A stretch of DNA of 24,306 bases from a virus. Position 1 is the stretch's first letter; each line of letters opens with the position of its first letter. The stretch spans positions 1 to 24,306 of IMG/VR virus record IMGVR_UViG_3300025108_000379. One strand, given 5' to 3'. A model generated the notes under the pieces. The model searched no databases. It worked only from the letters and a program-made list of their open reading frames with translations, and had not been told where the DNA came from. Shown piece after piece: positions 4,457 through 17,620 of the stretch. The translations under genes and the position numbers were made by a program.

Positions 4457-5662
4457 ATGGAAGAAAATGTAAAAAATCAGCTTGATCAGTTAGGAAACTT
4501 GATTGATTCCAAAATTGAAAAAGCTACTGGACAAGCACTAGAAAGTGCTAATGGTAAAGCAGATGAATCACTGAAAGGTGAAATATCAAACTTAACCAAC
4601 AAATTTAATGAGAGAATGGACGCAATGGAAGTTGCGAACAAAAAACACATGGAAGTTTTAGAAGGCAAAAAAGCTGATAAATCTTTCAAAGGTGGTTTAA
4701 TAAAAAGTATCAATGACGGTGCTTTAAGTTCTTTAAGAAACGGAAACGCAAGAAGTGCATCTTTTGAGATAAAAGCTGATATGACTGTTGCTGCTGACTT
4801 TACTGGTGAAGTTATACCAGCACAAAGAGTAAGCGGATACAAGTTTGACCCGGCAAGACCTCAACACGTGAGAGAATTAATCCCACAGGGATCAACTAAC
4901 TCAGACGTAATAAGATTTGTAAAAGAATCTGGTTACAGTGACGGATCTGCTATGAAAGCAGAGGGATCAACACTAGGTCAATCAGATTTCGATATGACTG
5001 CTAGTTCTGTAAATGTAGAAAAATTGGGAGCATATTTAAGAATTTCAGAAGAAATGCTTGCTGACACTCCACAATTAACTAGCTACATATCTAACAGAGT
5101 ACCATCGAAGCTTTTAACTGCTGAAGATGATCAATTATTAAACGGTAATGGAAGTGCGCCAAACTTATCTGGTATTATCACTGACGCTGCTGATTTTGAT
5201 ACTACATCTGGTGGAGCTTTTTATCAATCTGTAAACGGAGCAAATCAATTTGACGTAATTATAGCTGCTTTAAATCAATTATCATTGAGCAACTATACTG
5301 CTGATAAAATTATTATGCACCCGACTGATTTCCACAAAATCTTATTATTAAAAGATTCAAACTTGTCTTATTTAAAAGATCAAGTGTTTAAAGGATTACA
5401 ACCTGTATTTAATGGAGTACCTGTTATTCTTAACACAGCTATTGCTGCTGGATCTTATTTACTAGGAAACTTTGGACAAGGAACTCAACTATGGATTAGA
5501 GATAATGTTTCAGTTGAATTCTTTAGAGAAGATGGAACCAATGTAAGAGATGGATTTGTTACTGTGAGATGTATGGAAAGAATTGCTTTAAGCAACTACT
5601 TGCCAAACGCTTTCGTAAACGGAACATTTGCTGCTGGTATCACTGCTCTAGAAACGCCGTAA
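4457..5662 (+). CDS. Major capsid protein, HK97 fold
   Basis: Main shell protein of the head, 401 aa. Residues 1 to about 100 form a charged, coiled-coil-like N-terminal segment rich in E and K, typical of the delta (scaffolding) domain of HK97-type capsid proteins that the upstream protease removes. The mature part probably begins between residues 95 and 110, near ARSASFEIKAD. The rest has familiar capsid features: an E-loop region around 140-180 (LIPQGSTNSDVIRFVKESG, GSAMKAEGS), the helix with AYLRISEEMLADTPQL near 190-205, IIMHPTDFHKILLLKD near 284-299 and NGVPVILN near 318-325. The order protease then capsid, and a strong terminator 25 bases after the stop, support the assignment. The cleavage site is inferred, not visible. 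Confidence 0.93.
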   Translation: MEENVKNQLDQLGNLIDSKIEKATGQALESANGKADESLKGEISNLTNKFNERMDAMEVANKKHMEVLEGKKADKSFKGGLIKSINDGALSSLRNGNARSASFEIKADMTVAADFTGEVIPAQRVSGYKFDPARPQHVRELIPQGSTNSDVIRFVKESGYSDGSAMKAEGSTLGQSDFDMTASSVNVEKLGAYLRISEEMLADTPQLTSYISNRVPSKLLTAEDDQLLNGNGSAPNLSGIITDAADFDTTSGGAFYQSVNGANQFDVIIAALNQLSLSNYTADKIIMHPTDFHKILLLKDSNLSYLKDQVFKGLQPVFNGVPVILNTAIAAGSYLLGNFGQGTQLWIRDNVSVEFFREDGTNVRDGFVTVRCMERIALSNYLPNAFVNGTFAAGITALETP

Positions 5663-5684: not shown

Positions 5685-5713
5685 ATTAAGGGGGTTTTTA
5701 ATCCCCTTTTTTT
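5685..5713 (+). terminator. Rho-independent terminator after the capsid gene
   Basis: AAGGGG (5688-5693) pairs with CCCCTT (5703-5708) around a short T-rich loop, and a run of seven T follows (5707-5713). It lies 25 bases past the capsid stop and closes the packaging/capsid block before the small-gene block begins. Confidence 0.85.
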
Positions 5714-5895
5714 ATGGCTTTTTTTGTCGTTTAAGCAACTTTCCACCCTCTAAGGTATTTATACATTCAAAATTTCTTTTCGTTTATTAGCGTAAAATCC
5801 CCACTGAGCAAAAAAAATAATTAAAAAATAACTTAAAATTTTTTTTAAATATTAAAATATTTTTTTATATATTCGTACTAACTAAAACGATAAAT
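5714..5895. other. AT-rich intergenic spacer with a possible promoter
   Basis: This 182-base stretch has no credible ORF and is the longest non-coding gap in the window. Its right half is almost pure A/T with long T and A runs. TATATTCG at 5868-5875 differs by one base from the Bacteroidota TAnnTTTG element and lies 20 bases before the ATG at 5896, so it is a candidate promoter for the small-gene block. No convincing hairpin or RNA structure was seen by eye. Confidence 0.5.
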
Positions 5896-6390
5896 ATGAA
5901 AAATACTACTACTTACAATGGCTACAATTTATTAGAAAAAAACGTCAAAGGTTGGATCATTGAAGAATCCGTTGATCTTTGGGGCAGTTACCACTATCTT
6001 TATATGGTTAGCGGTTACTCACAAGACAGTTACAGATATTACTGTGTTAACCAAAACGGTATAACAATTAACAAAGAATCCCATTTAATTAAAGAAGAAG
6101 CTAAATTTTCTTTTGACGAAAATCGTAAAGCTGCTGACAACGGATACATAGCTTGTTTAAAAGATCGTAAAATTTACGAATTGGATTTAATGTTTACCGA
6201 ATCCGAATGCGATGCTCAAAAAACTGTAATATTAAACGAATTAAATAAAAAACAATTTATTTACGACTTACAAACATTAACAAATAAATTTATTGATGAG
6301 TACAACACTTCTTCAGATCCTAGTAGGCGTGAAGATCTTAACGAGCAAATCAAGAAAAATATCAAATTTATAAAAACAGGCAAATACTAA
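5896..6390 (+). CDS. Hypothetical protein, 164 aa
   Basis: I do not recognise this protein. It is soluble-looking, with no signal peptide or membrane segment. The N-terminal half is aromatic-rich (WGSYHYLYMVSGYS, SYRYYCVNQNG), suggesting a small beta-rich fold. The C-terminal half (about 100-160) is highly charged and helical, with a KTVILNELNKK segment and a lysine-rich tail. It is the first gene after the capsid terminator and heads a same-strand run of small genes. Its position between capsid and connector genes is not usual for a structural gene, so an accessory early or host-takeover role is possible, but nothing in the sequence establishes this. The ATG at 5896 follows an AT-rich spacer with a candidate promoter. 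Confidence 0.75.
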   Translation: MKNTTTYNGYNLLEKNVKGWIIEESVDLWGSYHYLYMVSGYSQDSYRYYCVNQNGITINKESHLIKEEAKFSFDENRKAADNGYIACLKDRKIYELDLMFTESECDAQKTVILNELNKKQFIYDLQTLTNKFIDEYNTSSDPSRREDLNEQIKKNIKFIKTGKY

Positions 6391-6395
6391 TAATT

Positions 6396-6569
6396 ATGAA
6401 ATTAAACAAAAAAAATCTTGCTGTAATAGGCAACAAAGTATGGAGTTACACAACCTGTGTAGCTACGATCGAGGGTGACAAATTACTTTCTCACGGTTAC
6501 TACTCTAAAACAACAACTAGACACATTAACTACGTTGCTGAGCAACTTAACCTTAAAATTGTAAAATAA
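6396..6569 (+). CDS. Small conserved-looking phage protein, 57 aa
   Basis: ATG at 6396, TAA at 6567-6569. The product begins MKLNKKNLAVIGNKVWSY and includes TTCVATIEGDKL, SHGYYSKTTTRHINYVA and a basic end (LKIVK). The pattern W-S-Y-x-T-x-V-A ... G-Y-x-S-x-T-T-x-H-I-N-Y-V-A is one I associate with a widespread family of tiny phage proteins of unknown function; this is from memory only. It starts six bases after the upstream stop, and its TAA overlaps the next ATG (TAATGG), so it looks translated as part of a run. A 57-residue length is below common gene-calling cut-offs. Function unknown. Confidence 0.75.
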   Translation: MKLNKKNLAVIGNKVWSYTTCVATIEGDKLLSHGYYSKTTTRHINYVAEQLNLKIVK

Positions 6570-6820
6570 TGGCATCAAACGAACAAATACAAATAGATTA
6601 TCCACTAAACGTAACAAAGAGAGCTTACATATATTTAATCGAGCATTTATGCAGAAACGGCTACTACATTGGAGATATGTTAAATCCAGTGTATAAAGAT
6701 TACTGCGCTCAAAAACTTATTGATAAATGTAACAGTTTAGAAGAAGAACACGGCGGCGATGATCACTGGGAATACAACGATAAATTAACTTTAAAAGACG
6801 ACTGTGGCTATGAAGGTTAA
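6569..6820 (+). CDS. Hypothetical protein, 83 aa
   Basis: Small soluble-looking protein of unknown function. The first half has a helical, aromatic stretch (TKRAYIYLIEHLCRNGYY). The second half is strongly acidic with a His/Asp/Glu cluster (EEEHGGDDHWEYND) and cysteines in DYCAQKL, DKCNSL and DDCGYEG. The acidic/His cluster could bind a metal, but no known site is recognised. The ATG overlaps the upstream stop by one base, and the 3' end overlaps the next gene by 11 bases in another frame, so translation is probably coupled on both sides. That tight packing is the main reason to believe it is real. Confidence 0.7.
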   Translation: MASNEQIQIDYPLNVTKRAYIYLIEHLCRNGYYIGDMLNPVYKDYCAQKLIDKCNSLEEEHGGDDHWEYNDKLTLKDDCGYEG

Positions 6821-7106
6821 TAAAAACACTAGAAGCTCTGGACACGGCAAAAAAATATTCTGTCCTAAATGTAATGCTCCATCAAGAGTTTACCACTTTT
6901 CTTGGTCAGCTATACAATGCGGTACTTGTGACAATATGATCGACAAGTACGATTGGAACCTACAATCAGCAGATATACCGACTGAAACAGGTATAATTGA
7001 GGCACATAGAAAATTCTTGGCTCAGGATCCGGGAAACTGGAAATGGTTAATTGCTTTTTACGCAGTGGCCCTTATTATAACAATTTTACTAACTATAAAA
7101 ATTTAA
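6810..7106 (+). CDS. Zinc-ribbon protein with C-terminal membrane segment, 98 aa
   Basis: Two Cys-x2-Cys knuckles, FCPKC (C18, C21) and QCGTC (C37, C40), are spaced as in a small zinc ribbon. The middle is hydrophilic. A single hydrophobic segment (about 77-96, ending ALIITILLTIKI) looks like a transmembrane helix, so the zinc ribbon would be tethered to the inner membrane, presumably on the cytoplasmic side. ATG 6810 is preferred to GTG 6804, which adds two residues. The gene overlaps its upstream neighbour by 11 bases. The function is unknown; a zinc ribbon plus membrane anchor could be a superinfection-exclusion or host-membrane factor, but that is only a suggestion. Confidence 0.75.
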   Translation: MKVNKNTRSSGHGKKIFCPKCNAPSRVYHFSWSAIQCGTCDNMIDKYDWNLQSADIPTETGIIEAHRKFLAQDPGNWKWLIAFYAVALIITILLTIKI

Positions 7107-7108
7107 CA

Positions 7109-7501
7109 ATGATAACTTTTAAAATAAACTTTAAATCGTCTGTGTACGAAAATATATGTGATTTATTAGAAATGGAAATGGATTACTATTTATCAGATTT
7201 TATAACTGAGGAAGAATGGAATGATGATATGCACTTTACTGATGCTGACGAGCTTCAATATTGGTTAGATGATAATCACTGTTTTAGAGTTGATACTATA
7301 TATTACTGGGACGCTATGAAATACTTAAAAGAAAATGACACAAGCTTAAATAAATCAATCGAGCTTGCAAATAATGCCGGCTACGATTTGAGCTCAATCA
7401 ACAGTACGCTATTAGCAGATCTTTTAAGAGAAGACGAAATCAGAGAAGATTTTTATTTGTGTAAAGATCAGATTGACGAAATATTTAAAACTTTACTATG
7501 A
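7109..7501 (+). CDS. Highly acidic hypothetical protein, 130 aa
   Basis: ATG 7109 is chosen over an upstream in-frame non-ATG start at 7043 because it follows the previous stop by two bases; starting at 7043 would overlap that gene by more than 60 bases. The protein has 31 Asp/Glu against 10 Lys/Arg, a net charge near -21, with acidic residues throughout (MEMDYYLSD, TEEEWNDD, DADELQYWLDD, LREDEIREDF). It is mostly helical-looking, without signal peptide or membrane segment. Charge of this kind is seen in DNA-mimic and anti-defence proteins but is not proof. The stop overlaps the next ATG (ATGA). I recall similar sequences from flavobacterial phage data but cannot name a family. Confidence 0.75.
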   Translation: MITFKINFKSSVYENICDLLEMEMDYYLSDFITEEEWNDDMHFTDADELQYWLDDNHCFRVDTIYYWDAMKYLKENDTSLNKSIELANNAGYDLSSINSTLLADLLREDEIREDFYLCKDQIDEIFKTLL

Positions 7502-7656
7502 GTGCTAGATCTAGATTTGAACACAGGTTAAAAGTTTTGAGAAGGATCCGAAAAATGGAATGCCCAAAGAATAAACCCGGATTTAATAATTTAACCGACC
7601 TTGAAAAGCAAAAAGAGATGCTTAAATGGTCAAAATTTGTAAGAGATGTACAATAA
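7498..7656 (+). CDS. Small basic hypothetical protein, 52 aa
   Basis: ATG at 7498 overlaps the upstream TGA in an ATGA junction, and TAA is at 7654-7656. The sequence starts MSARSRFEHRLKVLRRIRK and continues with a short CPKNKPGF turn and a charged helical end (LEKQKEMLKWSKF). The N-terminal basic helix could bind nucleic acid. There is no recognised family. Evidence for reality is the coupled start codon and uninterrupted frame; the small size keeps confidence moderate. Confidence 0.55.
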   Translation: MSARSRFEHRLKVLRRIRKMECPKNKPGFNNLTDLEKQKEMLKWSKFVRDVQ

Positions 7657-7813
7657 CAATAATAATGACCAATCGTTGCTTATATCGTGCTTTATGCTTG
7701 TTTTAGCAATAAGATCCATATTAATACTTAATGACTTTTTAACAACTGCTGTTTTTACTTTTCTAGGATTTTCAGTGTTGTTAAACTGGCATAACAAGAA
7801 TCAGTTACCGTAA
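7646..7813 (+). CDS. Small putative membrane protein, 55 aa
   Basis: ATG 7646 lies inside the end of the preceding ORF (overlap 11 bases) and the frame runs to TAA 7811-7813. After a polar Asn-rich start (MYNNNNNDQS) come two hydrophobic stretches, LLISCFMLVLAIRSILIL and FLTTAVFTFLGFSVLLNW, so a two-helix membrane hairpin is plausible. It fills what would otherwise be a 230-base gap before the nuclease gene and is followed by a terminator. An alternative in-frame start is ATG 7694 (39 aa). The function is unknown; small holin-like or exclusion proteins look like this, but nothing further supports either. Confidence 0.5.
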   Translation: MYNNNNNDQSLLISCFMLVLAIRSILILNDFLTTAVFTFLGFSVLLNWHNKNQLP

Positions 7814-7838
7814 TTTTGTTTGTTTTGTTTTAGTTGTT

Positions 7839-7871
7839 AAAAACCCGGTTAAATTTTAGCTGGGTTTTTTT
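7839..7871 (+). terminator. Rho-independent terminator closing the small-gene run
   Basis: AACCCGG (7842-7848) pairs with CTGGGTT (7860-7866) with one G-T wobble and an 11-base loop. The stem can extend by A-T pairs, and T7 ends at 7871. The nuclease ATG follows only 13 bases later, so the nuclease needs read-through or a promoter in or next to the hairpin. Confidence 0.75.
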
Positions 7872-7884
7872 CTATATTATAGGC

Positions 7885-8259
7885 ATGAATCATAACCAGA
7901 AAGGTTGTTTTGCTGAATATCATTTTGCATCAACGGCAATCACTTTAGGTTATAACGTATCAACACCATTATTGAGCTCAAGTTATTACGATTGTATATT
8001 AGAAAAAAATGGAAAGCTTTTTAAAATACAGGTCAAATACTTAGGTAAGAACAGATTGAGAAGGGGCAACAGTATGCAAATTACATTAAGGCGAACCGGT
8101 TTACCAAACTATGAAAAAAAGTATGTAGATTATTTTGCCTTATATGATGAAGAAAATAAAGGTTTTTTTATTATACCAAATTTAGGGCAAAGCTGTTTAA
8201 AAATAAACATTAATGGTAAGTATAAAGAAAATTTTAATAACTTTGCACTGATTTCATAG
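7885..8259 (+). CDS. PD-(D/E)XK nuclease, group I intron endonuclease-like
   Basis: ATG 7885 is chosen over an in-frame non-ATG start at 7834, which would place codons across the terminator stem. The 124-aa product has the PD-(D/E)XK nuclease plan: Glu in the first helix (KGCFAEYHFAS, E11), the central Asp after a hydrophobic strand (SSYYDCILE, D36), and the catalytic lysine in FKIQVKYLG (Q49-V-K51). Gln replaces the second acidic residue, as in the group I intron-associated endonuclease/resolvase-like subfamily. Roles known in that fold include homing, Holliday-junction cutting and repair; which applies cannot be told here. The gene is isolated between terminators at 7839-7871 and 8272-8307, unlike its neighbours, which suggests a mobile or separately expressed cargo gene. 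Confidence 0.8.
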   Translation: MNHNQKGCFAEYHFASTAITLGYNVSTPLLSSSYYDCILEKNGKLFKIQVKYLGKNRLRRGNSMQITLRRTGLPNYEKKYVDYFALYDEENKGFFIIPNLGQSCLKININGKYKENFNNFALIS

Positions 8260-8271
8260 ATTATCTTTAGA

Positions 8272-8307
8272 GTGTCACTGGTAAAAATACAGTGGCACTT
8301 TTTTTTT
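8272..8307 (+). terminator. Strong Rho-independent terminator after the nuclease
   Basis: GTGTCACTG (8272-8280) pairs over nine positions with CAGTGGCAC (8290-8298), with one G-T wobble, around a nine-base loop, followed by nine T (8299-8307). It is the best hairpin in the window. Confidence 0.9.
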
Positions 8308-8314
8308 ATCTTTA
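8307..8314 (+). promoter_or_regulatory. Possible -7 promoter element before the connector genes
   Basis: TATCTTTA overlaps the end of the terminator T-run and matches TAnnTTTG except for the last base. It lies 16 bases before the ATG at 8331, like the better matches elsewhere. A promoter is needed here because the preceding terminator is strong. Confidence 0.35.
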
Positions 8315-8330
8315 CAGTAAATTAATAATT

Positions 8331-8534
8331 ATGAAAATAAAATTAAAAACGTCAATGATAATCGAAGGCAAAGAAATTGCTGCTGGTGAGATTATAAACA
8401 TTAATAAATCTAACTTAGATAAATGGTTGAAAAAAGGTTGGGGTGAAATAATTAAAAAAGAAGTAAAAATCAAAAAAGAAACTAAAGAATTCAAGATTGA
8501 TAAACAAACTAAAAATGAGACAAATAAAGATTAA
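8331..8534 (+). CDS. Small basic protein upstream of the connector, 67 aa
   Basis: ATG 8331 is preferred to an in-frame upstream start at 8292 that would lie inside the terminator. The first 45 residues (KLKTSMIIEGKEIAAGEI, LDKWLKKGWGEI) follow a pattern common in small phage proteins placed near head-tail connector genes: a short beta region with an I-x-G-K-x-x-x-x-G-E motif, then a helix ending in a K-G-W/Y-G/A-E turn. The last 20 residues are a lysine-rich tail. No function is assigned to this group to my knowledge; a head-completion accessory role is a guess from context. The 3' end overlaps the connector gene by 20 bases. Confidence 0.75.
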   Translation: MKIKLKTSMIIEGKEIAAGEIININKSNLDKWLKKGWGEIIKKEVKIKKETKEFKIDKQTKNETNKD

Positions 8535-9021
8535 TTCCACAACAGGCAGTGAAATAGTTACTACAAGTGAATTTAAGGATTACGCAAGAATAAGTAATAC
8601 ATCAGATGACACTTTAATAGCTAATATCATTGTACAAGCTAGGATCTGGTGCGAAAATTACATATCAAGAGATATTGTTGCAAAAAATAGAACTTATTAC
8701 ATACCGGAAACTAACGGAATTTTTGATTTGCCTTTCGGTCCTGTCGCAAGTATTTCGTCTGTAAGCATTGACAGTGTAGCATATAGCGACTATACAACAC
8801 CCGGTTTAGACAATGAAACCATAGATCTAGACGGCCCTGCTGACGAAGTTAAAGTTGTATATGTTACAACAGGATTATCTGACAAATTATTAGAACAAGC
8901 AATTTTACAGTATGCTACAACTTTATATGATAACAGACACGATTATCAAGTTGGCAATATTAATGAAGTGCCTTCTTCAAGTAAAGCTATTTTAAACAGT
9001 TACAAAAATATGTTTATATAA
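8515..9021 (+). CDS. Head-tail connector protein, gp6-like
   Basis: Predicted adaptor that binds under the portal ring and starts the neck. ATG 8515 is preferred to the in-frame TTG 8497, giving 168 aa. The N-terminal helical part has the hallmark of the gp6/gp15-type connector family: TTSEFKDYARI, then DDTLIANIIVQARIWCENYI, an array of helices ending with a short beta element (NRTYYIPE). A central beta insert follows (FDLPFGPVASISSVSI), and a closing helix LLEQAILQYATTLYDNR. It overlaps the upstream gene by 20 bases and its stop overlaps the next ATG by one base. The next three genes are the usual neck and tail-completion genes, which supports the call. Confidence 0.88.
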   Translation: MRQIKINSTTGSEIVTTSEFKDYARISNTSDDTLIANIIVQARIWCENYISRDIVAKNRTYYIPETNGIFDLPFGPVASISSVSIDSVAYSDYTTPGLDNETIDLDGPADEVKVVYVTTGLSDKLLEQAILQYATTLYDNRHDYQVGNINEVPSSSKAILNSYKNMFI

Positions 9022-12097: not shown

Positions 12098-15000
12098 ATG
12101 GGTACTACATTAACAGGCAAGAGAGTTCAGAATACATATGATGCGCTTTTAAAATTAAGCGACAACCAAAATTTAACCGGAACAGCTAAAATAGTTGGTG
12201 ACGGTTATGGTAATGATTCCCCAATATATTTAAGCACATCACAAATAGGAATTGGAATTACACCTTCTTATCAATTTCATACTAGTGGTAATGCTAAAAT
12301 TGGTGGCAATCTTATAATATCTGGTAACCTAACTGTAAATGGTACACTAACATATTTAAATGTACAAGATCTAGCAGTCGAGGATCCGTTAATAAAATTA
12401 GCAAAAGACAATACAGCAAACACATTAGATATTGGATTATTTGGTAAATACGTTGCTACTGGTACAAAGTATAAAGGGTTTTACAATGATGCTAGTGATG
12501 ATAAATTTAAGCTATTTATAGGCACTACTGTTGAGCCAACAACAACTGTTGATACATCAGCAAGTGGATATACTGTTGGAACTCTTGTAGCTAATTTAGA
12601 GGGTAATGTAACTGGCGGCACTATAAGCGGAACCACTGGAAGTTTTAGTGATGATGTAAGTATAGCAGTTTCTAAAAAATTAAAATTTGGTGGTGGTAGC
12701 CATACATATATTAATGAGGATATTGATGATAGATTAAGGTTTTTTACTGGCGGTGCAGAGTTTATGAGGTTTACAGAAGACACCTCTAATACTGTACATT
12801 TATTTGAAAAAACTATTGTTGATAATGATTTACAAGTAAACAATAATATAAGTGGCACAACAGCTACATTTACTGGTTTAGTGACTGGTATTGCTCCGAC
12901 TAGTGATTTAAACTTTGCTACAAAAAAATATGTAGATGATCAAACTATTCCAACACCGACATTAAGCTCTGTTTTAAGTGCTGGTAATTCATCTGGTTCA
13001 AATGATTTAAAAATTATTGATGATCAAAAATTGCTTTTAGGTAATGATGGTGATATGCAGATATATCATAATCAAGTTAATTCTGTATTTTTTAATGATA
13101 CTGGAAATATGGTTTTTAGAAATAATGCCAATGACAAAGACATTAGCTTTCAGACAGATGATGGGCAAGGTTACACTACTGAATATTTAAAATTTGATGG
13201 TGGTTATAGTTTACCTCAAATAAGAATACCAGACAATGTAACAATGAATTTTGGTTCTGATGATGATTTAAAAATATACCATGATGCTACCGATAGTTAT
13301 ATTAAAAATGATACTGGAAATTTCATAATTCAAAATACAAATCCTGATAAAGATATAAATTTCTATGCTACTGTTTCCGATGGTGCTGGTGGCGGAACTG
13401 AGGAGCTTTATTTTCAGTTAGATGGTAGTATTCAAAAAAACGAATTTTATAAACCAGCTTATTTTAAAGATAATATAAAAGCTGAATTTGGATCTGATAG
13501 TGATATTGAATTATTTTTTAGTTCAGCTGATGGTTATTTTAGAAATAAAACTGGAGATTTATATATACAAAATTTAGCAGATGATAAAAGTATTGTATTT
13601 CAATCAGATAACGGTATTGGTGGTGTTACAGAATACTTTAAAATAGATGGCAATATTAACAGAAATGTAATTTTAGTTACAACACAGCTTAATGATAATG
13701 TCCCAATGATTTTTGGTGCTGGAGCTGGTCGACCTAGTATAAAATATGATTCAACTGCAAGCCAATTATTTATTAATGGCGATACTAAATTCTTAAGTGA
13801 TGCTTATATTGTAAATAATTTAAATGTTCAAAAATCAGTTTACCAAACTGCAACTGGTGGTTTTTATATTAACAAACCTTATGGTGGTAGTTTTTACACT
13901 ACTCAAAATGTTTTTACAGGTGCAATACAAATAGCATTACCGACTGGTGGCACTGGTCATGATGATATGATTAAATTTGTTGTTGACATATTTGATTATA
14001 ATACTCAAGAATGTGTTACAGTATTTATTGGTGGTTATACATATCAAAATGTGGGGAGTGGTAACACCACTTGGTACAATGTGTCTGCAACAGTTTTAGG
14101 TCAAAGTTCAGCACAAAATTATACTGTTAGATTTGGTGATAATGGAACTGAGCATTGTGTTTGGATTGGTGATACGACTAGCACTTGGAATCATTTACAA
14201 GTTATAGTCAAAGATTTTTTTGCTGGTTATACTGCTAATATAAATAACTATTTAAGTGATTGGGGCATTAGTGTAGTAACTACACAAACAACTGTTAATA
14301 ATACGTTAACAAATTGTTTTCCAATGTCATCTGACACAATAGCTGATTATTTACCATTAACTGGTGGTACACTAACAGGTAATTTAAACGGCACCTCAGC
14401 ACATTTTACAGGAAATGTTGAAGTTGGTAGTAATGCAAATATATCAATGGATTCATCAGCTAATGGTCAATTAATGATTGATGGCGTAGGTTATCAGGGT
14501 GCTATTGCTTTAGATGATCAAGCTATGCATATATACCATAATAGCAGTGGAAGATCTTTAGTTTTAGGAACTAATGAAACAGCAAGATTAACTATTGGTG
14601 GTTCTGGAAATTCAACTTTTACAGGAAATGTAACAACTGGTCAATCATTATTAGTTAATGGAGTAGGCAATAATTCATCTTTAACTTTAGGAGCAAACAC
14701 TGGGAATTGGGTTTTTACTAATGTACAATCAAGTAGAAATTTAGAAATATCTGATTCAGATGGAACAGGTGTTGTTTTGACAATAGACACAAGTGGTGAT
14801 GCAACTTTTGTTTCAAAATTATCTGCGGCATCAATAGGAGTGTCTGGCAGTAATGGTACAGATGGTAATGGTATTTCTTTATATGGTGGTGCTTTTACTG
14901 GTCAACCTACCTATGGAATGATGTTCCAAAAAACATCAAGTTATAGCACATTTGGATATGTAAGTGGTGATTGGGCAACTTATTTTACAATGGATAGTGG

Positions 15001-17620
15001 AGCTAACAGAGGTTGGATTTTTAGAAATGTATCAACTAGTACCAATGTTGCATCTATAAATAATCAAGGTCATGCACATTTTCAAACACCATCTAAGATT
15101 ACAAGTAATGATACCTCTTTAACATTTGAGGATGCTGGTACAAATGCTATGGTAATAAAAGTTGGTGCTGGTGATGAATTGTATATTGGTAGTAACAACA
15201 CATACCAATTTAGAGGCACTACAACTGGTCAAGCTAGATTAATTTCAAATGGTTACATACATTTGTCTGCTGGTGCATCAACTTATACTGGTTTAGAATT
15301 ACATCAAACCGATGGTTCAAGAGTTGGTTTTTTCTATGGCGATAATGGGCAAACCTCAGAACCTAACGTTGGTATTTTAGATTCTGATGGAAATTGGGCA
15401 GTGAGAGTTAGGAGAGATAATTATACTGAATTAAGAGTTAATAATGTTGTTAAATTTCAAACAACAACAGCCATAAATTATAACTATCAACCAACTTGGA
15501 TTGAGGGTGGCTCTGCTAACTGGAATGAAACTACACCTGGAACAACAACTGGTTCTTTACATCTTGTACCAACTACACCAGATAATTATGGTAGTGCTAT
15601 AACATTTGGTGCATCTGATTCATCTAGTGGAACAAATGCACAAGCTGGTATATATACTAGAACAGATGGTTCTTATGGAACTAAAATGTATTTTGCTACA
15701 AGTGGTAGTTATGCAACTGGTTCTTCAACCAGAATGATGATTGACTACAATGGTCAAATAGGAATGGGTAGTATAGCACCAGAGGGAAAATTAGATGTTA
15801 CTGGTGATATTTGGTTAAATTCAGATAATGCTAATGCAGCATATTACTTGCGAGTTAATAGAGGTCAAAATCAAGATGGCGGCATACTTTTATATGGAAA
15901 TAAGACATTAGATTGGCAAATAGTAAACCAAACAAGTAGAAATTTAAACTGGTATTCGTATGCTGCTGGAGCTAGTGTAATGAGATTAACTACTGGTGGA
16001 CAATTATTAGTTAATGCAACATCCTCTACTTATGGTGCTGCTTATGGTTATAATTTAGGTGTAAAAGGAACTACCGGTCAAGCTTATATATCAATTGCTA
16101 GATCTAATCAAAATTTAGATTCTCAAGGTGTAATTATAGGTTTAGATACAAACTATTCTTATTTTGTTAATAGAGATGCTCTTCCATTAGAATTTCACAC
16201 AAATAATGCTGTAAGAATGCACATACATGGCTCTTTAAATCGTGTTGGTATTGGTGCTGATCCTGTTTCCTCTGCTGGTGTAAATAACTTTTTAATGGTA
16301 AAAGGTTCCTCACATTCTGGTATTGTTTTAAATGCAAATAGCGGTGCTGTACAAGAAATGTGGAATGATGGCGGTACTTTAAATATGTGGGATAGTTCAC
16401 AAGGTTATAGAATGAGATTTTATACAAGTGGTAATGCACAAGTATATAATGGATTAACAGCTGATTCTTTTGGTGTAGCTGGTTCAAATGGTACTGATGG
16501 TAAAGGAATTTCGCTTTATGGTGGCTCCTCTGCTGGTGAGCCAACTTATGGTATGATGTTTATGCAAACAGCAACATTCGGTGGTTACGGATTAGTAAAT
16601 GGTAGTTGGGCAACCTACTTTACTATGAATAGTGACACATCTAGGGGTTGGATTTTTAGAAGAGCTGGCAACAGTAATTGTGCGAGTATTACTGCTGGCG
16701 GCGATTTATCCTTAAAGGGTATAATTAGTTTTACAGATACAAATCAAAGAATATCTGGTTTAAATGGTTCTTATTTAAAAATACAAAGTGGTTCAGCTAG
16801 TGATGGTGGTATAAATTTAACTAATACAAGCGGTACTAATTTAATGTACTTATATGCAAGTGGTTCTGATAAAGGCATGTTAAATGCGGGTGGTTATTGG
16901 ACATTTAAACATTCACAAGGTGGTAACACTAATATATATTCTGGGAATCAAAATTATGTATGGCAATATCAAGGAAGTAATGGTTACGCTTATTTTCCAG
17001 CTTGGATTAATTTAGCTTCTGGTACAGGTTTATTTACAAATTCAAACGGTGGTCATTTTTATGGTAATGAGGGTTCTACTTATGGTGCATGGAGAACATC
17101 TGGTAGCAGAAATGGTTATAGTGGAATTTATGATAATCATTCAGCCACAAATGCAAATATGTTTGATTCTAGCGGTAATGGTGGTAATTATTCATCAACT
17201 GCTGGGTGGCATTTTTATTATCATAAAACAAATCTTTGTTTAGGTATTGGCAATTCAACAACATCATCATCTTATTCTTTATATGTAACAGGTTCGATAT
17301 ATTCAACTCAAGATGTTATTGCTTACTCAGATAAAAGAGCAAAAGAAAATATTATTACTGTTGATAGTGCTATTGAAAAGGTAAATAAATTAAGAGGGGT
17401 TTATTACACACCAAAAGAGGGTAAAGATAAATCAAGAAAAGTTGGTGTTATTGCACAAGAGATTTTAGAGGTATTGCCAGAGGTTGTAACACACGACAAA
17501 GAAAATGATAGATATGGTGTTGATTATGGTAAAATTACTGGTTTATTAATAGAAGCTATCAAAGATCAGCAAAAACAAATAGATAAATTAACTAAATTTG
17601 TAGATAAATTAAATAAATAA
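12098..17620 (+). CDS. Giant tail fibre with C-terminal S74 chaperone, 1840 aa
   Basis: Predicted host-recognition fibre, likely trimeric and beta-rich. N-terminal region: LTGKRVQNTYDALLKL, then SGNLTVNGTLTYLNVQDL and VEDPLIKLAKDN (about 75-110), a head type common in marine phage fibres. Three tandem repeats of about 70-80 residues begin near 306, 377 and 456, each with F/LG-S/N-D-D/G-D-L/M-x-I-Y/F-H...F-x-N-x-T-G-x-x-x...NxxxDKxIxF. A globular domain (about 589-740) is followed by LPLTGGTLTGNL. Two related blocks of about 75 residues start near 917 and 1462 (GSNGTDGxGISLYGG, YGMMF, WATYFTM, RGWIFR). The end is an S74 self-cleaving chaperone, AYSDKRAKENI (Ser1744, base 17327) and VGVIAQEILEVLPEVV, with a coiled-coil tail; cleavage before Ser1744 is expected. 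Thr/Gly/Asn-rich throughout; third codon positions look more T-rich than in the capsid genes. Confidence 0.9.
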   Translation: MGTTLTGKRVQNTYDALLKLSDNQNLTGTAKIVGDGYGNDSPIYLSTSQIGIGITPSYQFHTSGNAKIGGNLIISGNLTVNGTLTYLNVQDLAVEDPLIKLAKDNTANTLDIGLFGKYVATGTKYKGFYNDASDDKFKLFIGTTVEPTTTVDTSASGYTVGTLVANLEGNVTGGTISGTTGSFSDDVSIAVSKKLKFGGGSHTYINEDIDDRLRFFTGGAEFMRFTEDTSNTVHLFEKTIVDNDLQVNNNISGTTATFTGLVTGIAPTSDLNFATKKYVDDQTIPTPTLSSVLSAGNSSGSNDLKIIDDQKLLLGNDGDMQIYHNQVNSVFFNDTGNMVFRNNANDKDISFQTDDGQGYTTEYLKFDGGYSLPQIRIPDNVTMNFGSDDDLKIYHDATDSYIKNDTGNFIIQNTNPDKDINFYATVSDGAGGGTEELYFQLDGSIQKNEFYKPAYFKDNIKAEFGSDSDIELFFSSADGYFRNKTGDLYIQNLADDKSIVFQSDNGIGGVTEYFKIDGNINRNVILVTTQLNDNVPMIFGAGAGRPSIKYDSTASQLFINGDTKFLSDAYIVNNLNVQKSVYQTATGGFYINKPYGGSFYTTQNVFTGAIQIALPTGGTGHDDMIKFVVDIFDYNTQECVTVFIGGYTYQNVGSGNTTWYNVSATVLGQSSAQNYTVRFGDNGTEHCVWIGDTTSTWNHLQVIVKDFFAGYTANINNYLSDWGISVVTTQTTVNNTLTNCFPMSSDTIADYLPLTGGTLTGNLNGTSAHFTGNVEVGSNANISMDSSANGQLMIDGVGYQGAIALDDQAMHIYHNSSGRSLVLGTNETARLTIGGSGNSTFTGNVTTGQSLLVNGVGNNSSLTLGANTGNWVFTNVQSSRNLEISDSDGTGVVLTIDTSGDATFVSKLSAASIGVSGSNGTDGNGISLYGGAFTGQPTYGMMFQKTSSYSTFGYVSGDWATYFTMDSGANRGWIFRNVSTSTNVASINNQGHAHFQTPSKITSNDTSLTFEDAGTNAMVIKVGAGDELYIGSNNTYQFRGTTTGQARLISNGYIHLSAGASTYTGLELHQTDGSRVGFFYGDNGQTSEPNVGILDSDGNWAVRVRRDNYTELRVNNVVKFQTTTAINYNYQPTWIEGGSANWNETTPGTTTGSLHLVPTTPDNYGSAITFGASDSSSGTNAQAGIYTRTDGSYGTKMYFATSGSYATGSSTRMMIDYNGQIGMGSIAPEGKLDVTGDIWLNSDNANAAYYLRVNRGQNQDGGILLYGNKTLDWQIVNQTSRNLNWYSYAAGASVMRLTTGGQLLVNATSSTYGAAYGYNLGVKGTTGQAYISIARSNQNLDSQGVIIGLDTNYSYFVNRDALPLEFHTNNAVRMHIHGSLNRVGIGADPVSSAGVNNFLMVKGSSHSGIVLNANSGAVQEMWNDGGTLNMWDSSQGYRMRFYTSGNAQVYNGLTADSFGVAGSNGTDGKGISLYGGSSAGEPTYGMMFMQTATFGGYGLVNGSWATYFTMNSDTSRGWIFRRAGNSNCASITAGGDLSLKGIISFTDTNQRISGLNGSYLKIQSGSASDGGINLTNTSGTNLMYLYASGSDKGMLNAGGYWTFKHSQGGNTNIYSGNQNYVWQYQGSNGYAYFPAWINLASGTGLFTNSNGGHFYGNEGSTYGAWRTSGSRNGYSGIYDNHSATNANMFDSSGNGGNYSSTAGWHFYYHKTNLCLGIGNSTTSSSYSLYVTGSIYSTQDVIAYSDKRAKENIITVDSAIEKVNKLRGVYYTPKEGKDKSRKVGVIAQEILEVLPEVVTHDKENDRYGVDYGKITGLLIEAIKDQQKQIDKLTKFVDKLNK

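Follow-up and report, generated by a model that had tools for sequence, protein, structure and literature searches.

A two-part locus between the capsid and connector genes of a marine phage lineage: a probable small-gene accessory hotspot and a core nuclease of a homing-endonuclease family

Comparison with its relatives leaves us highly confident that the interval between the major capsid gene and the connector genes of the virus record IMGVR_UViG_3300025108_000379 (linear, 24,306 bases, analyzed as a whole and called the window here) has a two-part architecture, in which an accessory hotspot of small genes is followed by two core genes, the small membrane protein gene b7 and a nuclease gene. 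The complete statement, which also assigns a role to the nuclease, is more tentative. The gene order of the window is terminase, portal, MuF-like protein, protease, capsid, the block of small genes, a 67-amino-acid (aa) open reading frame (ORF) called x67, head-tail adaptor (phrog_40), head closure (phrog_25), and neck (phrog_5). Between the end of the capsid gene at 5662 and x67 with the adaptor (8331–9021) lie seven small genes, b1 to b7 (5896–7813), and the nuclease (7885–8259). Thus, the block of small genes that an initial annotation had placed between the capsid and connector genes is real, and the contents that it named, that is, a zinc-ribbon membrane protein, a very acidic protein, a basic peptide, a nuclease, and a tiny membrane ORF, were correctly recognized.

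The evidence for a hotspot comes from loci spanning the interval (numbered L), which were collected by capsid, nuclease, and adaptor searches; all of these relatives are metagenomic, uncultured marine phages. Their 100 distinct cargo segments encode 480 predicted proteins, which fall into 98 families (55 singletons), and the cargo interval ranges in length from ~0.7 to 2.2 kb, with that of the window being the longest. With the exception of a b1-like C-terminal ORF in L020, b1, b2, b3, and b5 are confined to close relatives of the window, and L118, whose nuclease is 85% identical to that of the window, also has b2, b3, and b5. The pair L014/L015 is 98.4% identical until 170 bp beyond the capsid stop, differs by ~220 bp of unrelated genes, and is then 99.9% identical over 3.5 kb. 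Clean cassette replacement is also seen in the pairs L109/L110, L110/L111, L126/L127, and L041/L053, such that cassettes are swapped between genomes that are otherwise 94–99% identical. The swapped gene often has a shared leader on one side (with TATCTTTG or TATATTTG) and, on the other, the recurrent hairpin AATGGGGGTGTAAAAACCCCC. We considered whether the swapped cassettes are assembly chimeras, which is unlikely given that contigs from many samples show the pattern and the same cargo families are found in different lineages.

It is very improbable that the small genes are ordinary, fast-diverging structural or assembly genes of this lineage. Their position within the head gene cluster and the conservation of b7 are what such genes would show, but the first-slot genes are unrelated, rather than diverged, between ~98% identical genomes, the zinc-ribbon of b4 is found in unrelated cyanophages, and such genes are absent from the site in the nearest cultured relatives. 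In particular, Flavobacterium phage snusmum, the nearest annotated cultured capsid relative (~30% identity), has just a 41-aa ORF separating the capsid gene from the next structural gene, and therefore the block is specific to the lineage of the window.

The region from 5896 to ~7640 is best explained as a late-operon accessory hotspot of the "moron" type, which probably has its own leader and is insulated by terminators. Its small genes are replaced one or a few at once, most likely through homologous recombination among relatives in the same infected cell, for which homology would be provided by the capsid end, the leader, the intergenic hairpins, and the downstream genes, all of which are conserved. 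Gene-distance correlations indicate broad mosaicism, the capsid gene included, and give no sign that the nuclease in particular is mobile, in a sample that was picked by capsid and nuclease similarity and whose correlations are biased by that choice. Further variable sites are present elsewhere in the genomes of relatives.

The cargo probably tunes the interaction between phage and host, and it may act against the host or its defenses, as the initial annotation had proposed. Searches with PADLOC, Pfam, and PHROG gave no confident function for the small genes of the window. The best PADLOC match in the window (E 2e-4) was the nuclease, which was called a homing endonuclease, and b5 matched AbiI at 0.0023; novel systems would escape this search. 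Ten recurrent cargo proteins of the relatives were likewise searched for function, which returned DUF3310 in one family and nothing else. The zinc-ribbon half of b4 is 44–53% identical to small proteins of marine Synechococcus and Prochlorococcus phages, which points to movement between unrelated marine phages. In many relatives, the C-terminal membrane half of b4 is matched by an ORF of 37 aa that stands alone (family F3). Similarly, the last part of b1 (6257–6390) is missing in L083 and L004, but L020 has a stand-alone ORF of 53 aa that it resembles, so that b1 looks like two fused cassettes.

The nuclease most likely begins at the ATG at 7885, which gives a protein of 124 aa, and not at the upstream TTG at 7834 of the mechanical ORF list. 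It matches PF11645 (PDDEXK_5) with an E value of 2.5e-13 and 50.7 bits, compared with a curated cut-off of 26.1, and a PDB sequence search returned the homing endonuclease I-Ssp6803I (2OST) as the sole match (E 1.5e-7). I-Ssp6803I is also the best structural match of an AlphaFold2 model of the nuclease (mean predicted local distance difference test score 91.7; Foldseek E 1e-7; VIA-align Z 16.2 over 122 residues), with lower matches to SPARDA nucleases (Z 12.2), Hjc resolvases (Z 11.3, 1gef), and restriction enzymes. The protein is small and basic (isoelectric point [pI] 9.4), and residues E11, D36, Q49, and K51 are invariant among the aligned copies. Archaeal Hjc resolvases resemble it in being small single-domain proteins with the same nuclease superfamily fold, but they are structurally farther from it than I-Ssp6803I and are absent from the PDB sequence-profile matches; moreover, the Hjc-type motif is ExK, whereas the window nuclease has QxK. 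No known RNA was found in the window by Rfam at gathering score, and therefore it contains no recognizable intron.

Three samples, which share contigs and all belong to one lineage, were used to assess how widely the nuclease is distributed. It is present in 126/126 loci with both capsid and adaptor, in all 79 loci that were retrieved with the downstream DNA element and extend at least 300 bp upstream, and in each of the 66 loci (>700 bp upstream) caught by the adaptor, and none of the loci in the three samples is an empty site. As sampling was seeded by similarity to the lineage, the term "fixed" is valid for the lineage sampled. The 148 copies of at least 110 aa are all intact with the E and YD...Q-x-K motif, and locus L045 has a broken tblastn match. 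The median ratio of nonsynonymous to synonymous substitution rates is 0.08 for the nuclease, 0.12 for the capsid, and 0.22 for the adaptor, and the nuclease is single-copy in 14 of 15 records with a match. The nuclease is thus a core gene of the sampled lineage and b7 is nearly so (91 of 100 segments). Phage homing genes are recognized by variable presence and decay (PMC10448857), and the nuclease, unlike a selfish homing gene, is neither patchily distributed nor decaying. The initial annotation had suggested that the entire block may be an accessory locus and had proposed that the interval be aligned among related phages. In that comparison the left part is indeed variable between conserved flanks, in keeping with a hotspot, but the nuclease is the same gene in the same place in all relatives sampled, and it and b7 were wrongly included.

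Outside this lineage, the nuclease of the window has no match in cultured phages at 1e-5. A divergent member gave weak matches to cultured phages, the best of which, MT835557, has no such capsid or adaptor within its 6-kb flanks. Bacterial and archaeal genome contigs yielded one nuclease locus, with the same phage neighborhood, in a metagenome-assembled genome labeled Woesearchaeota, and this is probably a mis-binned phage contig.

Terminators also divide the locus. The two that were initially described as bracketing the block are both present (5688–5708 and 8269–8301), but a third, at 7839–7869, had been overlooked; this middle terminator sets the nuclease apart from the cargo and therefore splits the block in two. 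The homologous sites of relatives have a hairpin that leads into a T-tract: after the capsid gene in 100/100 loci, before the nuclease in 94/100, and after the nuclease in 92/96, compared with at most 1.8 expected from shuffles, and the hairpins keep their place though their sequences vary. A TAnnTT(T/A) box follows the hairpin in 28 loci of the first set, 83 of the second, and 92 of the third (raw counts), and the leader position at which the window has TATATTCG is occupied by TATCTTTG or TATATTTG in relatives. A conserved element at the post-nuclease terminator, AGTGGCACTTTTTTTTTATCTTTAC, is found in ~100 viral contig stretches. TAnnTTTG is the promoter consensus of Bacteroidota, and the TAnnTTT boxes are putative promoters on the basis of this resemblance. 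The host is putatively a marine flavobacterium. A simple sigma-70 promoter scan of the window was not informative (40 found vs. 32 expected). We infer that the cargo, the nuclease, and the downstream genes are separate transcription units.

With regard to function, we tentatively favor the hypothesis that the nuclease is a late-made core endonuclease for DNA processing. It is flanked by two terminator elements with a promoter-like box after each, and it belongs to the I-Ssp6803I group yet is kept like a housekeeping gene. It would act on the replicating or packaging DNA of the phage itself, for example by cutting branches or junctions, rather than in selfish homing. Because there is neither variable presence nor decay, this role is favored over a drive for exchange and over exclusion or takeover. 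Several observations weigh against it. The structure closest to it is that of a homing enzyme and not of a resolvase; an early VRR-NUC protein is encoded in 12/12 related genomes searched, which weakens a DNA-processing role because this protein may already resolve junctions; the cultured phages with the nearest capsids (~30% identity) manage without the nuclease and the block; and the transcription units are read from sequence signals only. RusA had no match in 12/12 genomes, and a search for endonuclease VII, which also had no match, was uninformative as its controls were silent too.

An alternative that we consider rather unlikely is that the nuclease is a domesticated homing endonuclease that drives exchange by cutting, in a mixed infection, the same locus of relatives that carry a different allele. 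As repair from the genome of the nuclease would then copy the nuclease along with neighboring cargo, the swap slot would be expected beside the nuclease. The nuclease does have the sequence and fold of I-Ssp6803I and borders a site of rapid exchange, as has been proposed for phage homing genes generally (PMC10448857), and in some genomes the nuclease differs locally while its flanks are similar, as in L131/L079, in which the capsid is 96%, the adaptor 93%, and the nuclease 65% identical. However, empty sites and decayed copies are absent from every sample, cassette swaps leave the nuclease unchanged (L014/L015 agree at 99.9% throughout it), conserved genes separate the slot from the nuclease, and other variable sites in these genomes occur without it. 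Less likely again is a bolder form of this idea, namely that a homing-family endonuclease is permanently resident in one locus of a whole marine lineage, with no empty sites, and is the engine of slot turnover. We regard as slightly less probable still a role of the nuclease in exclusion or takeover, in which it would be a weapon against host or competing-phage DNA, degrading it late in infection, and would form one functional unit with the cargo. A small basic endonuclease beside accessory-type genes would be consistent with such a weapon, as would the related folds of SPARDA defense nucleases and restriction enzymes, but its late position and conserved sequence are not, no gene for a protective modification was identified next to it, and genes engaged in arms races tend to vary rather than become fixed.

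The left part of the locus fits a late-operon moron or accessory hotspot, and its unusual feature is the fixed homing-family nuclease at the edge. The "ant moron" region of P22-like phages is a late-operon moron region (PMC2629481) and is similar in that length and gene set vary between syntenic morphogenetic genes within the late operon, probably with their own expression; it differs in that the site here is between capsid and connector genes, the cargo belongs to unassigned families, and a fixed nuclease unit lies at the right edge. The antiviral hotspots of P2 and P4 are small loci of about 1–5 kb (PMC9122126) that likewise show high turnover between two conserved genes, but the window cargo has no recognized defense family, the genes here are far smaller, and no sign of lysogeny was found here, where none was sought. 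The gene for I-Ssp6803I lies within a group I intron of tRNA-fMet (PMC1995217). The window nuclease shares with I-Ssp6803I the fold, the family profile, and PD-(D/E)XK-type residues with QxK, whereas it is free-standing, has no Rfam RNA match, and is fixed in all relatives sampled. Homing endonuclease gene (HEG) islands are conserved regions of >10 kb with nucleases on both sides (PMC10448857); here, too, a homing-type nuclease edges an exchange zone near essential genes, but there is one nuclease and the adjoining region is variable, unlike an HEG island. Phage accessory hotspots are productive places to seek counter-defense genes, and the fixed address of this one, from capsid stop to nuclease, means that dozens of unassigned families of small proteins can be collected from metagenomes. 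With the nuclease, it becomes testable whether a homing-type endonuclease can become a fixed phage core gene and whether it then serves DNA processing or drives exchange.

Table 1. Features of the capsid-to-adaptor interval in the window (positions in the 24,306-base record)
Feature	Position	Strand	Evidence or remark
Major capsid gene, conserved left flank	4457..5662	+	phrog_10, E 3.7e-54
Terminator after capsid	5688..5708	+	hairpin z -2.3; 2/200 shuffles equally good
TATATTCG, TAnnTTTG-like box, cargo-operon leader	5868..5875	+	sequence; putative promoter
b1, 164 aa, first (variable) slot, no known family	5896..6390	+	
b2, 57 aa, phrog_4264 (function not assigned)	6396..6569	+	E 4.5e-8
b3, 83 aa, acidic, no confident family	6569..6820	+	
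b4, zinc-ribbon (CxxC...CxxC) and C-terminal membrane segment, phrog_5602	6810..7106	+	E 4.4e-8; hydropathy
b5, very acidic, pI 4.1, net charge -21	7109..7501	+	
b6, 52-aa basic peptide, net charge +9, recurrent family F1	7498..7656	+	
b7, 55-aa membrane protein, family F0	7646..7813	+	near-universal, 91/100
Terminator between cargo and nuclease	7839..7869	+	hairpin z -5.8; 0/200 shuffles; T-tract runs into TATATTAT
TATATTAT, promoter-like box	7873-7880		four bases 5' of nuclease start codon
PD-(D/E)XK nuclease, I-Ssp6803I group, 124 aa, core gene	7885..8259	+	
Terminator after nuclease	8269..8301	+	hairpin z -6.5; 0/200 shuffles; runs into TATCTTTA
TATCTTTA, promoter-like box	8307-8314		ahead of x67
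x67, 67-aa ORF, right flank	8331..8534	+	kept in most relatives
Head-tail adaptor, conserved right flank	8515..9021	+	phrog_40, E 2.2e-16

A structured RNA candidate of ~95 nt is found in the hotspot of many relatives (L014:10007-10119, L109:4422-4532, L110:5355-5465, L211:1710-1820, and others) and is absent from the window; in other marine phages it lies near the terminase gene, often near a b4-like gene. Its outer 8-bp stem covaries (6 pairs changed on both sides; 0/500 shuffles as high) and its core is nearly invariant. It matches no Rfam family, and a search with a covariance model gives a single copy in each locus that has the RNA. In L127, a leader of ~300 nt ahead of the slot-1 gene (about 1290–1600) contains cloverleaf-like stems, with AAAGGTGG...CCACCTTT around two hairpins, and its Rfam matches are weak and below gathering.

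The contig IMGVR_UViG_3300021959_000167 (L029 and L062; G005) has a capsid–nuclease locus at each end and is perhaps a chimera of two strains. The MuF-like frame, which lies before the protease, is about twice as long (~1.6 kb) in L099, L103, L139, and L156, which suggests an added domain. Finally, positions 12098–17620 of the window encode a repetitive protein of 1840 aa that is probably a tail fiber, the C-terminus of which resembles, by eye, an S74-type intramolecular chaperone.

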